Part shown: positions 30,947 to 36,365 of the stretch, one piece after another
How the letters are laid out: every line of letters starts with the position of its first letter
How positions within the stretch are numbered: the stretch's first letter is position 1
Origin: Terriglobia bacterium
GTDB taxonomy: Bacteria > Acidobacteriota > Terriglobia > Acidiferrales > UBA7541
Assembly: GCA_023512135.1 (NCBI GenBank)
Contig: JAIMAG010000001.1
Location: forward strand, 124,001 to 188,000
Direction of reading: 5' to 3'
DNA length: 64,000 bases
The notes under the pieces: model-generated
What the model was told of the DNA's origin: nothing
Databases searched by the model: none
What the model saw: the letters and a program-made list of their open reading frames with translations, nothing else
Program-made: the position numbers and the translations under genes

Positions 30947-33211
30947 ATGCCTGCCCGCCGCGCCAGGGCTGAGGTGGCGAGCTGGGTGCCCTTCGGCATC
31001 GGCCACACCAAACCGCATCACTACTGGGAAATTCTCCGCACGGTCTGGGAGAACCGCGATCGTCTGCTCTACGGCTGGCGCATTCTGCGCCACGGGGTTT
31101 GCGATGGCTGCTCGCTGGGCCCGCGCGGCCTGTACGACGACGCAATGGAGGGCATCCATCTGTGCCTGCTGCGCCTGCGCATGCTCCGGTTGAACACGAT
31201 GCCCGCTCTCGATCCCCGTCGGCTGGCAGACGCTGCGGCCCTGGAAAGACTCAGCGGGGCTGAGCTGCGGGAGCTGGGCCGGCTTCCCGTTCCGCTGCTG
31301 CGGCGAGCGGGCGAGCCGGGATTCCGCCGCATTCGCTGGGAGGAAGCCATCCGGCTGACCGGCGAAGCGCTCGGAGCAGCCGCTGCGCGCGATCCCGACC
31401 GCATCGCTTTCTACACCACGTCGCGCGGTCTGACGAACGAGACCTACTACGTGGCCCAGAAGGTGGCACGGCTGCTGGGCACGAACAACATCGACAACGC
31501 CGCACGCCTCTGCCACGCTGCTTCCACCACGGCGCTGAAGCAGACGATTGGCGTGGCCGCGGCCACCTGTTCGTACACCGACTGGATCGGCACCGAGCTG
31601 GTGGTTTTGCTCGGCTCCGATGTGGCCAACAATCAGCCGGTGGCGATGAAGTACCTCTACCATGCCCGCCGGCGCGGCACGCGCATCCTGGTGGTGAACC
31701 CCTACCGCGAGCCCGGCCTGGAGCGCTACTGGGTGCCTTCCATCCCCAGGAGCGCCCTGTTCGGCACCCGCATGACCGACGCCTTTTTCCAGGTGCGCGT
31801 GGGCGGCGATATCGCCTTTTTGAACGGCGTACTGAAGCACCTGCTCGAGATGGACGCGGTCGACCGCGCCTTCATTGCCGCGCACACCACCGGATTCGAA
31901 GAGCTTTGCGCCGCGCTCGCCGCCCAGTCGTGGGAGCAGCTGGAACGCAGCGCCGGGCTCGACCGCCGGGCGATGCGCCGCTTCGCCGAGCTCTACGCCG
32001 GTGTCCGCACGGCCGTTTTCATCTGGAGCATGGGGCTGACGCAGCATCGCTTCGGCGTGGAAAACGTGCAGGCCGTGGTCAACCTGGCCCTGGCCCGCGG
32101 CATGGTGGGCCGGCCGAATACCGGCCTGGTGCCGGTGCGCGGACACAGCGGCGTACAGGGTGCGGCCGAGTGCGGCTCGGTACCGAACGGCTTTCCGGGG
32201 GGCTTGCCCGTTAACGAAGAGAACGCGCGCCACTTTGCAGAGTTGTGGGGTGCGCCGGTGCCGGCACGCCCGGGACTCTCGGCGCCGGAAATGCTCGAAG
32301 CAGCTGCGCGAGGTGCGCTGGAGGTGTTCTATATCGCCGGCGGGAATTTCCTGGAAACCATGCCCGAGCCGGACGGCATGCGCGCCGCGCTGGCTCGCGT
32401 GCCCGGTCGCATCCACCAGGACCTGGTGGTGAATTCGGCCATGCTCGTTCCGCCCGCGCCGGGCGGATTCGTTCTGCTGCTGCCGGCGCAGACTCGCTAT
32501 GAACAGAAGGGCGGAGGCACGCTCACTTCCACCGAGCGCCGCATCCGGTTTTCGCCGGAAATTCCCGGGCCGCGCATCGGCGAAGCGATGGCCGAATGGG
32601 AAATTTTCTCGCGCATCGGGGAGGCTGCGCTCGGCCCGGAACGAGCCCATCTGGTGCGCTTCGACTCTGCACAGGCGGTCCGCGAGGAAATGGAACGGGT
32701 GATGCCGCTCTATCGCGGCATTGCCGGCCTGCGCGCCGAAGGCGATGCCGTGCAGTACGGCGGCCCGCTGCTCTGCGCTGGTGGCGTGTTTGCCGGCATG
32801 CCCGGCGGCCGGGCACGGTTTGTCGCGCTCACCCCGCCGGAGCTGGAACCGGCCGACCTGCCGCCGGCCGCGAATCGATTCTATCTCACCACGCGCCGCG
32901 GCAAGCAGTTCAACTCCATGATCTGGGGCAAGCGCGACCCGCTGACCGGTGCCCGCCGCGAAGATGTTCTGATGGCCGCTGAAGATGCCGTCCGGCTCGG
33001 CCTGCGCGACGGTGACCGAGTTGTGCTCCGCCAGCAGGCCGCTGCGGCTTCGGCAAACAGCCGGTTCTATGGGGTCTGCCGGATTGCACCGGTTCGCCCG
33101 GGCACGCTGGTGGCCCACTGGCCCGAAGCCAACGTGCTGATTCCCCTGCACCTGGACCCGCAGAGCAAAGAGCCAGACTACAACGCCTGGGTGGTGATGG
33201 AAAAAGCATAG
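30947..33211 (+). CDS. FdhF/YdeP-family molybdopterin oxidoreductase
   Basis: A 754-residue member of the DMSO-reductase superfamily, closest in pattern to the formate-dehydrogenase-alpha-like YdeP group. N-terminal PFGIGHTKPHHYWEI and GVCDGCSLGPRGL are typical, as are FYTTSRGLTNETYYVAQK, LCHAAST (likely metal-ligand cysteine region), SMGLTQHRFGVENVQ and the C-terminal KQFNSMIWG. It lacks the usual four-cysteine ferredoxin-like N-terminus of true formate dehydrogenases. YdeP has been linked to acid resistance in E. coli; the reaction here is unknown. No partner Fe-S or cytochrome subunit lies nearby. No Shine-Dalgarno is evident before the ATG. Confidence 0.85.
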   Translation: MPARRARAEVASWVPFGIGHTKPHHYWEILRTVWENRDRLLYGWRILRHGVCDGCSLGPRGLYDDAMEGIHLCLLRLRMLRLNTMPALDPRRLADAAALERLSGAELRELGRLPVPLLRRAGEPGFRRIRWEEAIRLTGEALGAAAARDPDRIAFYTTSRGLTNETYYVAQKVARLLGTNNIDNAARLCHAASTTALKQTIGVAAATCSYTDWIGTELVVLLGSDVANNQPVAMKYLYHARRRGTRILVVNPYREPGLERYWVPSIPRSALFGTRMTDAFFQVRVGGDIAFLNGVLKHLLEMDAVDRAFIAAHTTGFEELCAALAAQSWEQLERSAGLDRRAMRRFAELYAGVRTAVFIWSMGLTQHRFGVENVQAVVNLALARGMVGRPNTGLVPVRGHSGVQGAAECGSVPNGFPGGLPVNEENARHFAELWGAPVPARPGLSAPEMLEAAARGALEVFYIAGGNFLETMPEPDGMRAALARVPGRIHQDLVVNSAMLVPPAPGGFVLLLPAQTRYEQKGGGTLTSTERRIRFSPEIPGPRIGEAMAEWEIFSRIGEAALGPERAHLVRFDSAQAVREEMERVMPLYRGIAGLRAEGDAVQYGGPLLCAGGVFAGMPGGRARFVALTPPELEPADLPPAANRFYLTTRRGKQFNSMIWGKRDPLTGARREDVLMAAEDAVRLGLRDGDRVVLRQQAAAASANSRFYGVCRIAPVRPGTLVAHWPEANVLIPLHLDPQSKEPDYNAWVVMEKA

Positions 33212-33350: not shown

Positions 33351-33379
33351 TTGACAGCCACGCTGGGCTGTGTTATCTG
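33351..33379 (+). promoter_or_regulatory. Sigma70 promoter with extended -10, driving a candidate small RNA
   Basis: TTGACA at 33351-33356 is a perfect -35. After a 17-nt spacer comes TATCTG at 33374-33379, with TG at 33371-33372 forming an extended -10. Transcription is expected to start near 33386. No protein gene follows on this strand. Confidence 0.7.
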
Positions 33380-33385
33380 GCGCCA

Positions 33386-33560
33386 CCAGAGCAGGGTGGT
33401 GGGAGAGTAGCTTAGGGTAGCGGCTCATTTGCCGAAGCGGCTGCAACTCCAACAGCGAAAGAAAAATTGACGGGCACCCTCTGCAAACGGTTTTCTTCCA
33501 GCAACACCCCACCCCACCCCGGGAGGTGAAGGCCGCAAGGTTTTCACCTCCCGTCTTTTT
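33386..33560 (+). ncRNA. Candidate free-standing small RNA, about 175 nt
   Basis: The segment lies between a strong promoter (33351-33379) and a strong intrinsic terminator (33520-33560) and has no plausible reading frame. Short helices are visible: CCACCA/TGGTGG (33383-33388 with 33397-33402), CGGC/GCCG (33421-33424 with 33431-33434), GCTG/CAGC (33440-33443 with 33453-33456). A GGGTGGTGGG run near the 5' end can pair imperfectly with the CCCCACCCCACCCC run near 33507-33520, closing the molecule. The size and long-range pairing could fit 6S RNA, but its hallmark bubble was not confirmed. It does not show the SRP RNA core motif. Family unknown. Confidence 0.6.
33520..33560 (+). terminator. Rho-independent terminator of the small RNA
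   Basis: An 11-bp perfect stem (CGGGAGGTGAA at 33520-33530 with TTCACCTCCCG at 33543-33553) is followed by TCTTTTT. There is no matching T-run on the other strand, so it works for plus-strand transcription. Confidence 0.85.
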
Positions 33561-33772: not shown

Positions 33773-34573
33773 TCAAGGGGTGAAGAGAGGGACGGGTGCA
33801 GGGGCGGCCTTCGAGGCTTGCTTGTTTTCATAGAGCGCACGGTCGGCACGATCGAGCATCTGCTGCGGGGATTCCCCGGACTGGTAGCCTGCCCAGCCCA
33901 CGGAGTAGGTGATCGGCAGGCGCGTGCCGTTCCATTGCACTTCCATCTTGCCCAGCCGCGCGAGCAGGTGGTGGAGCTGCTCGGGCGGGCAATCCGGAAG
34001 CAGGGCGAGGAATTCGTCGCCACCGATGCGTGCGGCAACATCGGAGACGCGCAGCACGCCCCGCAGCCGATCGGCGAACTCTTTCAGCACCAGGTCGCCC
34101 GCAGCGTGGCCGTAGCGATCGTTGATCTGCTTGAAGTCGTTCAGGTCAAACAGCAGAACCGAGAGCGAGTGCCCGTGCCGCTGGGAACGATTCGTTTCCG
34201 CTTGCAGCCGCTGCTCGGCAAAGCGGCGATTGTAGAGCCCGGTGAGGGGATCGTGCATTGCCAGATGATGAAGTTCCTTGGCACGCATCTCCAGCCGGAT
34301 CATCGCTTCCATGCTTTCCGCGAGTTGCCGGCGCAGCCGCTTGATCAAGATTTGCTGGTAGATGGAATACAGGTTGAACAGCAGCACCAGACCCACCAGA
34401 CCGCGCACGGCCAGGTCGAGCTGCTGCTGGAGCACACTGTCTTCTTCGACCAGGGTTGGATAGGAGAGCGAGACAACGCCGGCGGTCAGCAGCAACATCA
34501 CCGCGATGGCGGTCCACCACAACCACCAGTCGCGCCGCTCCAGCCGACGCAGCTTGGCCTGGATTTCCGACAT
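33773..34573 (-). CDS. Membrane diguanylate cyclase (GGDEF domain)
   Basis: A 266-residue protein with two N-terminal membrane helices (WLWWTAIAVMLLLTAGVVSL and LDLAVRGLVGLVLLFNLY), a short coiled linker and a GGDEF domain from HDPLTGLYNRR. The active-site motif is intact (RIGGDEF) and an inhibitory I-site RVSD lies five residues upstream, so it should make c-di-GMP with product inhibition. DLNDFKQINDRYGH holds the metal site. No dedicated sensor domain is seen beyond the membrane helices. The 212 nt between the small-RNA terminator and the gene end hold nothing recognised. Confidence 0.9.
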   Translation of the reverse strand: MSEIQAKLRRLERRDWWLWWTAIAVMLLLTAGVVSLSYPTLVEEDSVLQQQLDLAVRGLVGLVLLFNLYSIYQQILIKRLRRQLAESMEAMIRLEMRAKELHHLAMHDPLTGLYNRRFAEQRLQAETNRSQRHGHSLSVLLFDLNDFKQINDRYGHAAGDLVLKEFADRLRGVLRVSDVAARIGGDEFLALLPDCPPEQLHHLLARLGKMEVQWNGTRLPITYSVGWAGYQSGESPQQMLDRADRALYENKQASKAAPAPVPLFTP

Positions 34574-34782: not shown

Positions 34783-35469
34783 TCAGGAGCTGCGCTTGAT
34801 GGCTTCGACGTAGTGGTCGGCTTCGCGCGTGGGGCGAGGGATGCGGTAGCCGTCACAGACGGCCAAGGTCAACTGGATTGCACTCGGCAGTCCGATGCGA
34901 TAGCCCGTGGAGACATACACCGGACGTGCTCCGGCACGCGTGCGCAGAACTGCGCCAATCGGCTCGCCGGCGTCAAGCAGCGGTGTCCACGCACCCGGTT
35001 CCGGGCCGGGCTCGGCGTGCGTGCCAATCAGACGCGATTTCGCCACGCCTACCGTGGGCCGGCCCAGCAGCACGCCCAGGTGGCAGGCCAAGCCGAAGCG
35101 GCGCGGATGCGCGTAGCCGTGCGCGTCGCAAAAGAGCAGATCGAACGGCACTCGCAACCGCTCCACCGCGGCCAGCAGCGCCGGCGCTTCGCGAAAGCTG
35201 AGCAGGCCCGGAACATAGGGAAACTGCAGCGGCAGTGCAGCCCAGGCACGCTCCAGCTCCTCCAGTGCAGGGAAACTGTAAACAATGACGCCGGCAATGG
35301 CGCGTCCGCGGCTCGTGTCCAGCGCGACGTCGGCGCCGGCGACGCGGCGGATGTGTTCGGGTGAGATCGTGCGCGGCTGCTCGGCGGTCACGCGACGGCG
35401 CAGCTCTTCCTGGATATGGCGCGCTTCGGCCGGAGTGACGTCCCAGCGATGCAGTGGCAGCGGCTTCAT
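34783..35469 (-). CDS. nfi: Endonuclease V (deoxyinosine 3'-endonuclease)
   Basis: Cuts DNA next to deaminated bases, mainly inosine. 228 residues, normal length. The metal-binding acidic residues are in VAGADVAL (Asp), SFREAPALL (Glu) and FCDAHGYAHPRRFGLA (Asp), and the lysine is in VGVAKSRL. The ATG at 35469 is chosen (AGGT 8 nt upstream); an in-frame GTG 11 codons earlier is possible. About 210 nt separate it from the GGDEF gene, without other features. Confidence 0.93.
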   Translation of the reverse strand: MKPLPLHRWDVTPAEARHIQEELRRRVTAEQPRTISPEHIRRVAGADVALDTSRGRAIAGVIVYSFPALEELERAWAALPLQFPYVPGLLSFREAPALLAAVERLRVPFDLLFCDAHGYAHPRRFGLACHLGVLLGRPTVGVAKSRLIGTHAEPGPEPGAWTPLLDAGEPIGAVLRTRAGARPVYVSTGYRIGLPSAIQLTLAVCDGYRIPRPTREADHYVEAIKRSS

Positions 35470-35777
35470 CGACACCGACCTGTCGTGCGGCCGACAGCTC
35501 ACCCCGCCGGCTCTTCAGTGTGCAGGCTAGCACAGTTCTGCAGGTCGCGTGCCTGCCAGTGCAGGCCGCATTGTTTTCAGCGGGAGAGCTGAACCGGCTT
35601 TTCGTTCGGGGCCGGCTGAGCCTGCACCACGTCAAGACGGCGACGCCAGGCGTCGCAGCATGGCTGGAGGGGAGCAACCGTGAATGTGTTCCGTCGTGGG
35701 CAGGCTTCCGTCACACTTCCGCCTGCGAGCCAAACCATGCCGGCCTGCACGATTGGAGAGCTTTTCTTTTTGTTGCA
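35470..35777. other. Intergenic stretch between nfi and mglA
   Basis: About 308 bp between two minus-strand genes. Short open frames are present but none has a good ribosome site joined to a believable protein. No tRNA, terminator or clear promoter was recognised. Confidence 0.5.
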
Positions 35778-36365
35778 TCAGGCGCCTTTGCGGAGTTCGG
35801 TAAGCACCTGGCGGGCGACTTCCTTCAGCGTTTCGAACACGCCCCGGCCCTGGATGGCGACGGCTTCGGTGACCGGTTCGCCCTTCAGACGCAGCAGACG
35901 GGTCAGTTCTTCGACCGGCAAGATGTTGGGCAGGTCGCGCTTGTTCAGTTGCAGCACGTAGGGGATGGTTTCGAAGTTCAGGCCGTGTTCGCGAAGGTGT
36001 TCGCGCAGGTTGTCGAGAGTTTCCAGGTTGGCATCGAGCCGTTCTTCCTGCGAATCAGCGACAAAAACGACTCCATCGGCGCCTTTGAGAATCAACTTCC
36101 GGCTGGCTTCGTAGAAGACCTGGCCGGGCACCGTGTAGAGGTGGAACCGGGTGCGAAAACCGCGCACGGTGCCCAGGTCGAGCGGGAGAAAGTCGAAAAA
36201 CAGGGTGCGGTCGGTTTCGGTGGCCAGCGAGACCATTTTGCCTTTCAGGTCCTGGCCGGTGTGGTCGTAGATCCACTGCAGATTGGCCGTCTTACCGCCC
36301 AGACCCGGGCCGTAATAGACGATCTTGCAGTTGATCTCGCGCGCAGGAAAATTGATGAATGGCAC
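35778..36365 (-). CDS. mglA: MglA-type Ras-like GTPase
   Basis: A 195-residue small GTPase of the MglA/gliding-motility group, which sets cell polarity in myxobacteria and is widespread in Acidobacteriota. P-loop GPGLGGKT, switch-II region TVPGQVFY (the bacterial version of DxxGQ), and base motif NKRD. It begins with GTG; GAGGG is 7-8 nt upstream and the N-terminus ([18 protein letters not shown]) is typical of the family. The GAP/GEF partner MglB (roadblock domain) is not adjacent. Confidence 0.92.

Follow-up and report, generated by a model that had tools for sequence, protein, structure and literature searches.

RsaE/RoxS, RepG and similar small RNAs (sRNAs) direct a C-rich seed against G-rich sites, for example Shine-Dalgarno regions, and 6C RNA carries runs of C in two hairpin loops. 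Action of a C-rich seed on G-rich mRNA sites is well established; in Caulobacter, for example, the C-rich seed of the sRNA GsrN acts on a G-rich site of the katG mRNA (PMC5869019). For the Acidobacteria, the described RNA motifs include Acido-1, Acido-Lenti-1 and Solibacter-1, the first two of which are listed as not cis-regulatory (PMC2864571), and a 2022 review tabulates no more than four distinct annotated sRNAs from the whole phylum (PMC9029176).

The locus considered here lies in a stretch of 64,000 nucleotides (the window) from the genome of a Terriglobia bacterium (contig JAIMAG010000001.1) and is predicted to encode an sRNA with a C-rich tract. Likened by description rather than by sequence comparison, this RNA resembles GsrN in being a short intergenic sRNA that sequence searches recover from one bacterial family and in having an apparently exposed C-rich element as its best conserved part (PMC5869019); in GsrN, however, that element is the loop of a 5' hairpin and the promoter is of the sigma-T type, whereas here it is a linear tract beside the terminator and the promoter is of the sigma-70 type. 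With 6C RNA and the mycobacterial B11 it has in common putative C-rich pairing sites within a conserved stand-alone sRNA (PMC12395582, PMC10470900), and it differs from 6C in its linear tract adjoining the terminator, in having no Rfam match and in belonging to a different phylum. The likeness to RsaE/RoxS and RepG is drawn from the type of seed; the core of the tract, without U or G, allows no wobble on its side. Neither Acido-1 (RF01686) nor Acido-Lenti-1 (RF01687) matches the element; for Solibacter-1, PMC2864571 shows no Rfam accession.

The locus and its distribution

The promoter of the predicted RNA consists of an exact consensus -35 box, TTGACA, at 33351-33356 and, after a 17-nt spacer, an extended -10 element, TGTTATCTG, at 33371-33379, just as a preliminary description of this DNA had read them; all parts of the RNA gene given here are on the forward strand. 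Both elements are kept in relatives, the second as TGnTA, with the TG extension as the conserved part of the -10 region. A generic promoter scan missed this promoter owing to the weakness of its -10 hexamer. Judging from the position of the -10 element, the RNA would start at 33386 and extend over about 175 nt to 33560; its longest start-to-stop frame is 20 codons, in agreement with the earlier view that no protein-coding gene lies between promoter and terminator. A 5' structured domain (33387-33483), delimited from the sequence and predicted folds, may be closed by a stem between CAGAG..GGUG (33387-33398) and CACC..CUCUG (33475-33483). The C-rich tract CAGCAACACCCCACCCCACCCC (33499-33520), which is the proposed base-pairing seed, is followed by an intrinsic terminator, GGGAGGTGA..TCACCTCCC plus a T run (33520-33560), recognized from sequence and covariation. 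The terminator stem (33520-33553) counts 15 pairs, rather than the 11 bp first claimed, with a 4-nt loop, and the T run that had been noted is present as the tail TCTTTTT (33554-33560).

The distribution of the element was analyzed in a family defined as the Acidiferrales-type Terriglobia ("gp2"; 89 genomes), with 310 other Terriglobia genomes as the outgroup. DNA searches of relatives recovered a single copy in the majority of family genomes; across genera the alignable part is confined to the 3' 60-70 nt, with little alignable sequence in the 5' domain. A covariance model of this 3' module alone (C-rich tract and hairpin, 75 positions, promoter left out) yielded a single strong match in 66 of the 89 family genomes (E-values from 2.6e-10 to 1.1e-24) and no convincing copy in the 310 outgroup genomes; within the family, genera g3, g10 and g12 gave no strong match to it. 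Two weak outside matches (G156, G092) are terminators behind coding genes, and weak extra matches within the family (second matches in G018, G054, G107, G044 and similar ones) are mostly ordinary terminators 3' of coding genes; such look-alikes elsewhere have neither the tract nor the promoter. An exact pattern covering the C-rich tract and the start of the hairpin, searched against GTDB release 220 with each species represented by one genome, matches 36 contigs, labelled mostly as Acidobacteria (many of them "gp2"), Terriglobia, Candidatus Acidiferrum, which is itself placed in Acidobacteriota, Terriglobia, or Acidoferrales. Pattern matches outside the Acidobacteria (L050, L061, L066) lack the promoter and so look like chance, and no viral contig matched the element. 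A contig labelled Bacillota (L035, JAIMBE010000003.1) bears a sequence identical to that in G001, a congener of the window's bacterium, and this metagenome genome is probably a mislabelled record.

Because the model excludes the promoter, promoter conservation provides an independent test. TTGAC[A/T] is present at all 59 loci examined (TTGACA at 58, TTGACT at one), and 58 of the 59 also have a correspondingly spaced TGnTA. Among the loci found by the 3' model, 17 had not been used to build it, and TTGACA stands where expected in all 17 (a script scored 16 of them, and L198 was judged by eye); the background is 3% of random 115-nt windows with TTGACW. The preliminary description had made its reading depend on promoter and terminator being conserved in close relatives, and both are, the terminator stem with covariation. 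Given a promoter conserved across 59 loci, positions 33351-33560 very probably represent a real stand-alone sRNA gene and not a chance arrangement. By the same conservation, its promoter appears to be a housekeeping-type (sigma-70 type) extended -10 promoter, and its intrinsic terminator its own.

Conserved and variable parts of the RNA

Members of the family are about 106-190 nt long and consist of a fast-evolving 5' domain that varies in sequence and length, a linear A/C-rich tract and a GC-rich terminator hairpin. The fold predicted for the window's RNA is more stable than those of shuffled sequences (z -2.9), in line with the earlier suggestion of a folded RNA, but the terminator accounts for much of this stability. 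In the largest genus the 5' domain adopts a closed multi-branch fold with moderate covariation: for the whole structure in the g6 clade/largest genus, terminator included, five pairs have compensatory changes versus 1.1 in shuffles, and three of the five fall in the 5' domain. As these sequences are closely related, the covariation of the 5' domain is supportive, not decisive. Compensatory changes affect 8 of 14 pairs of the terminator (39 such cells versus 12 in shuffles), so that the covariation to be sought among relatives, as had been proposed, is found there above the level of shuffles.

The most conserved part of the RNA is the tract together with the lower terminator stem. Written as CAGCAACACCCC(ACCCC)nACCCC, the tract is nearly all A and C and near-invariant in 41 members, its repeat CACCCC being present in two to three copies with changes of copy number tolerated. 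The lower stem, GGGAG/CTCC, barely varies in the family, an invariance that exceeds what a terminator requires. As a separate observation, the terminator arms GGGAGGTGA and TCACCTCCC are identical to a strong Shine-Dalgarno sequence and to the anti-Shine-Dalgarno end of 16S rRNA, respectively; within the family the lower stem hardly changes, though genus g2 deviates.

In predicted folds the tract averages 77% unpaired across the family and reaches 95-100% for most RNAs of the largest genus; that of the window's RNA is about two-thirds paired. For the window's clade, folding predicts that the G-rich 5' end (33394-33402) pairs with the tract (33499-33520), a state 6.4 kcal/mol better than that with an open tract; the largest genus gives no sign of this possible self-inhibition. 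The long-range pairing between G-rich and C-rich segments that had been described at first is predicted for the window's RNA and for some other clades, but as a family-wide feature it is unsupported, given the average openness of the tract.

A second element and the state of Hfq

Some weak model matches lie behind a gene for an HNH endonuclease, and these revealed a second element, which has this position in many genomes. It is sRNA-like and about 60-65 nt long (G000:C49:95944-95961 in the window's genome, L243 about 445-462; also L213-L262), and some genomes (G002, G008) have an extra copy. A single copy of the exact ACACCCCGGGARG module, common to it and to the window's RNA, is followed by a hairpin of its own and a T run, and upstream there is a conserved promoter of the GAAACC/GCAACC...GCATCTAA type. 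This resembles the promoters of ECF sigma factors, which have AAC at -35 and CGTC at -10. An 18-mer of the second element, AGGACACACCCCGGGAAG, occurs with at most one mismatch in 75 of the 89 family genomes and in 1 of the 310 outside, and the genera without the first RNA (g3, g12, g10) carry it; it has no Rfam match. The pattern ACCCCGGGARG-N20-45-CTTTT has exactly two matches in the whole of the window's genome, namely the window's RNA and the second element, and the reversed control pattern has none there; in the ten genomes tested, every match to the pattern is either a window-type RNA or the second element.

The Hfq protein was sampled in 41 genomes, 25 of them from the family. In these 25 the best Hfq match is partial and reaches 42 bits, as compared with 80-98 bits in most other families sampled, and no canonical Hfq was found. 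Most of the sampled family genomes encode a divergent Hfq-like protein of about 110-150 aa; that of the window's genome (near G000:C34:186704-186847) is about 110-125 aa long and has an IFKHSI motif. It is probable that the RNA works without canonical Hfq, perhaps with the divergent Hfq-like protein.

Alternative readings and proposed function

Being intergenic and terminator-ended, with a same-strand gene downstream in some family genomes, the RNA might be taken for the leader, 3' UTR or attenuator of a neighbor, or for nothing more than a conserved terminator. In the window it is located between the genes for a molybdopterin oxidoreductase (30947-33211, forward strand) and a GGDEF diguanylate cyclase (33773-34573, reverse strand), both named from Pfam, and the latter is followed by endonuclease V and a small GTPase (34783-36365, reverse strand). 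As far as a crude gene caller can tell, homologues of the GGDEF, endonuclease V, small GTPase, TPR and CofD-like genes occur near the RNA in several genera, its immediate neighbors vary by genus, and the downstream gene lies on either strand, often the opposite one; in the largest genus the RNA is in a different neighborhood. Such variation in the flanking genes and in the strand of the downstream gene, along with the RNA's own promoter in 59 of 59 members, makes a leader or UTR improbable, and terminator look-alikes without tract and promoter speak against the conservation of a terminator alone. This context points to a separate gene that has been inherited vertically, and the varied neighbors, together with the conservation, support the preliminary description of an orphan sRNA gene, about 175 nt long, that has both a promoter and a terminator of its own and is not a leader. 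Frames of up to about 40 codons in some members could suggest a very small protein, which is hard to credit when three members lack any start-to-stop frame, others have frames of no more than 1-9 codons, and lengths vary freely. The similar length (about 175 nt) and the orphan gene with its own promoter would also suit 6S RNA (RF00013), one of the identities first considered, or another RNA that binds RNA polymerase. However, RF00013 gives no match at the element even at E 10, and the genome has its 6S RNA gene at another locus (G000:C44:257450-257658, minus strand, 73 bits, above the cut-off); a separate 6S match is present in 14 of the 21 genomes searched. The hallmark of 6S RNA, a long hairpin with a large central bubble, is absent from the consensus folds of the family, which show a multi-branched 5' domain, an open tract and the terminator. 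The identification as 6S RNA is therefore rejected, and a polymerase-binding RNA of any kind is most improbable.

The other identity first considered, an undescribed family, fared better. Rfam 15 contains no gathering-level match to the window or to six loci with members from other clades, RF00013, RF01686 and RF01687 all being unmatched; low-threshold matches to human lncRNA models are attributable to chance. Searches of open-access literature, which leaves most subscription papers outside its scope, turned up no work on sRNAs of the Acidiferrales-type order. Judged by these comparisons, the window's RNA is most likely the founder of an undescribed sRNA family that is confined to one family of Terriglobia and belongs to a known functional class.

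A stronger contender, although we consider it unlikely, is that the RNA mainly binds protein, the CACCCC tract being where a protein that binds single-stranded RNA (of the cold-shock, KH, S1 or Hfq-like kind) docks and is titrated, as CsrA is by CsrB-type RNAs. The short repeat in two to three copies of variable number suits such a site, and a divergent Hfq-like protein is kept in most of the family genomes sampled. On the other hand, one short site makes a weak sponge, the GGA-in-loop motif of CsrA was not noticed, and the second element has the exact ACACCCCGGGARG module once, an arrangement more suggestive of a fixed site for pairing.

We favor, as the probable though by no means certain reading, a stand-alone trans-acting sRNA, about 175 nt long and equipped with a promoter and a terminator of its own, that uses the tract as a seed on G-rich sites of mRNAs. 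Several features of the trans-acting sRNA class are present: a stand-alone gene with promoter and terminator, no conserved frame, and a conserved tract predicted to be accessible, if partly so in the window's own clade. Transcription would be driven by the housekeeping-type extended -10 promoter and ended by the intrinsic terminator, as deduced from their conservation. By analogy with other C-rich sRNAs, the tract is most likely the seed; it would pair with GGGGUG-type G-rich sites in mRNAs, often near ribosome-binding sites, and thereby alter the translation or stability of the target mRNAs. Because the core of the tract contains neither G nor U, it would pair by A-U and G-C alone and demand strict target sites. 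Pairing with the G-rich 5' end may, in the window's clade, hold the seed shut until it is released by a target or a protein. Targets were sought among exact complements and at a few sites: the two closest genomes contain few perfect 10-mer complements of the tract, no more than a reversed control gives, and these share no gene, and among the 9-mer plus ATG sites, of which one per genome was read, no gene recurs. In G001 one candidate site lies upstream of an IF-3-like frame; G000 lacks its counterpart, and the candidate was discarded.

A wider proposal, which we regard as possible but doubtful, is that a family without canonical Hfq evolved its own sRNA system, in which two sibling RNAs, one under a housekeeping and the other under an ECF-type (stress) promoter, have the invariant ACACCCCGGGARG as a common seed or as a dock for a dedicated chaperone, for example the divergent Hfq-like protein. 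Acidobacteria are abundant in soils and few of their sRNAs have been catalogued; here a conserved, predicted sRNA gene comes with a defined promoter, likely seed and terminator, and with a sibling. The family is rich in genomes from soil metagenomes; both RNAs are ready probes for metatranscriptomes, and they offer a direct test of sRNA action where Hfq has diverged.
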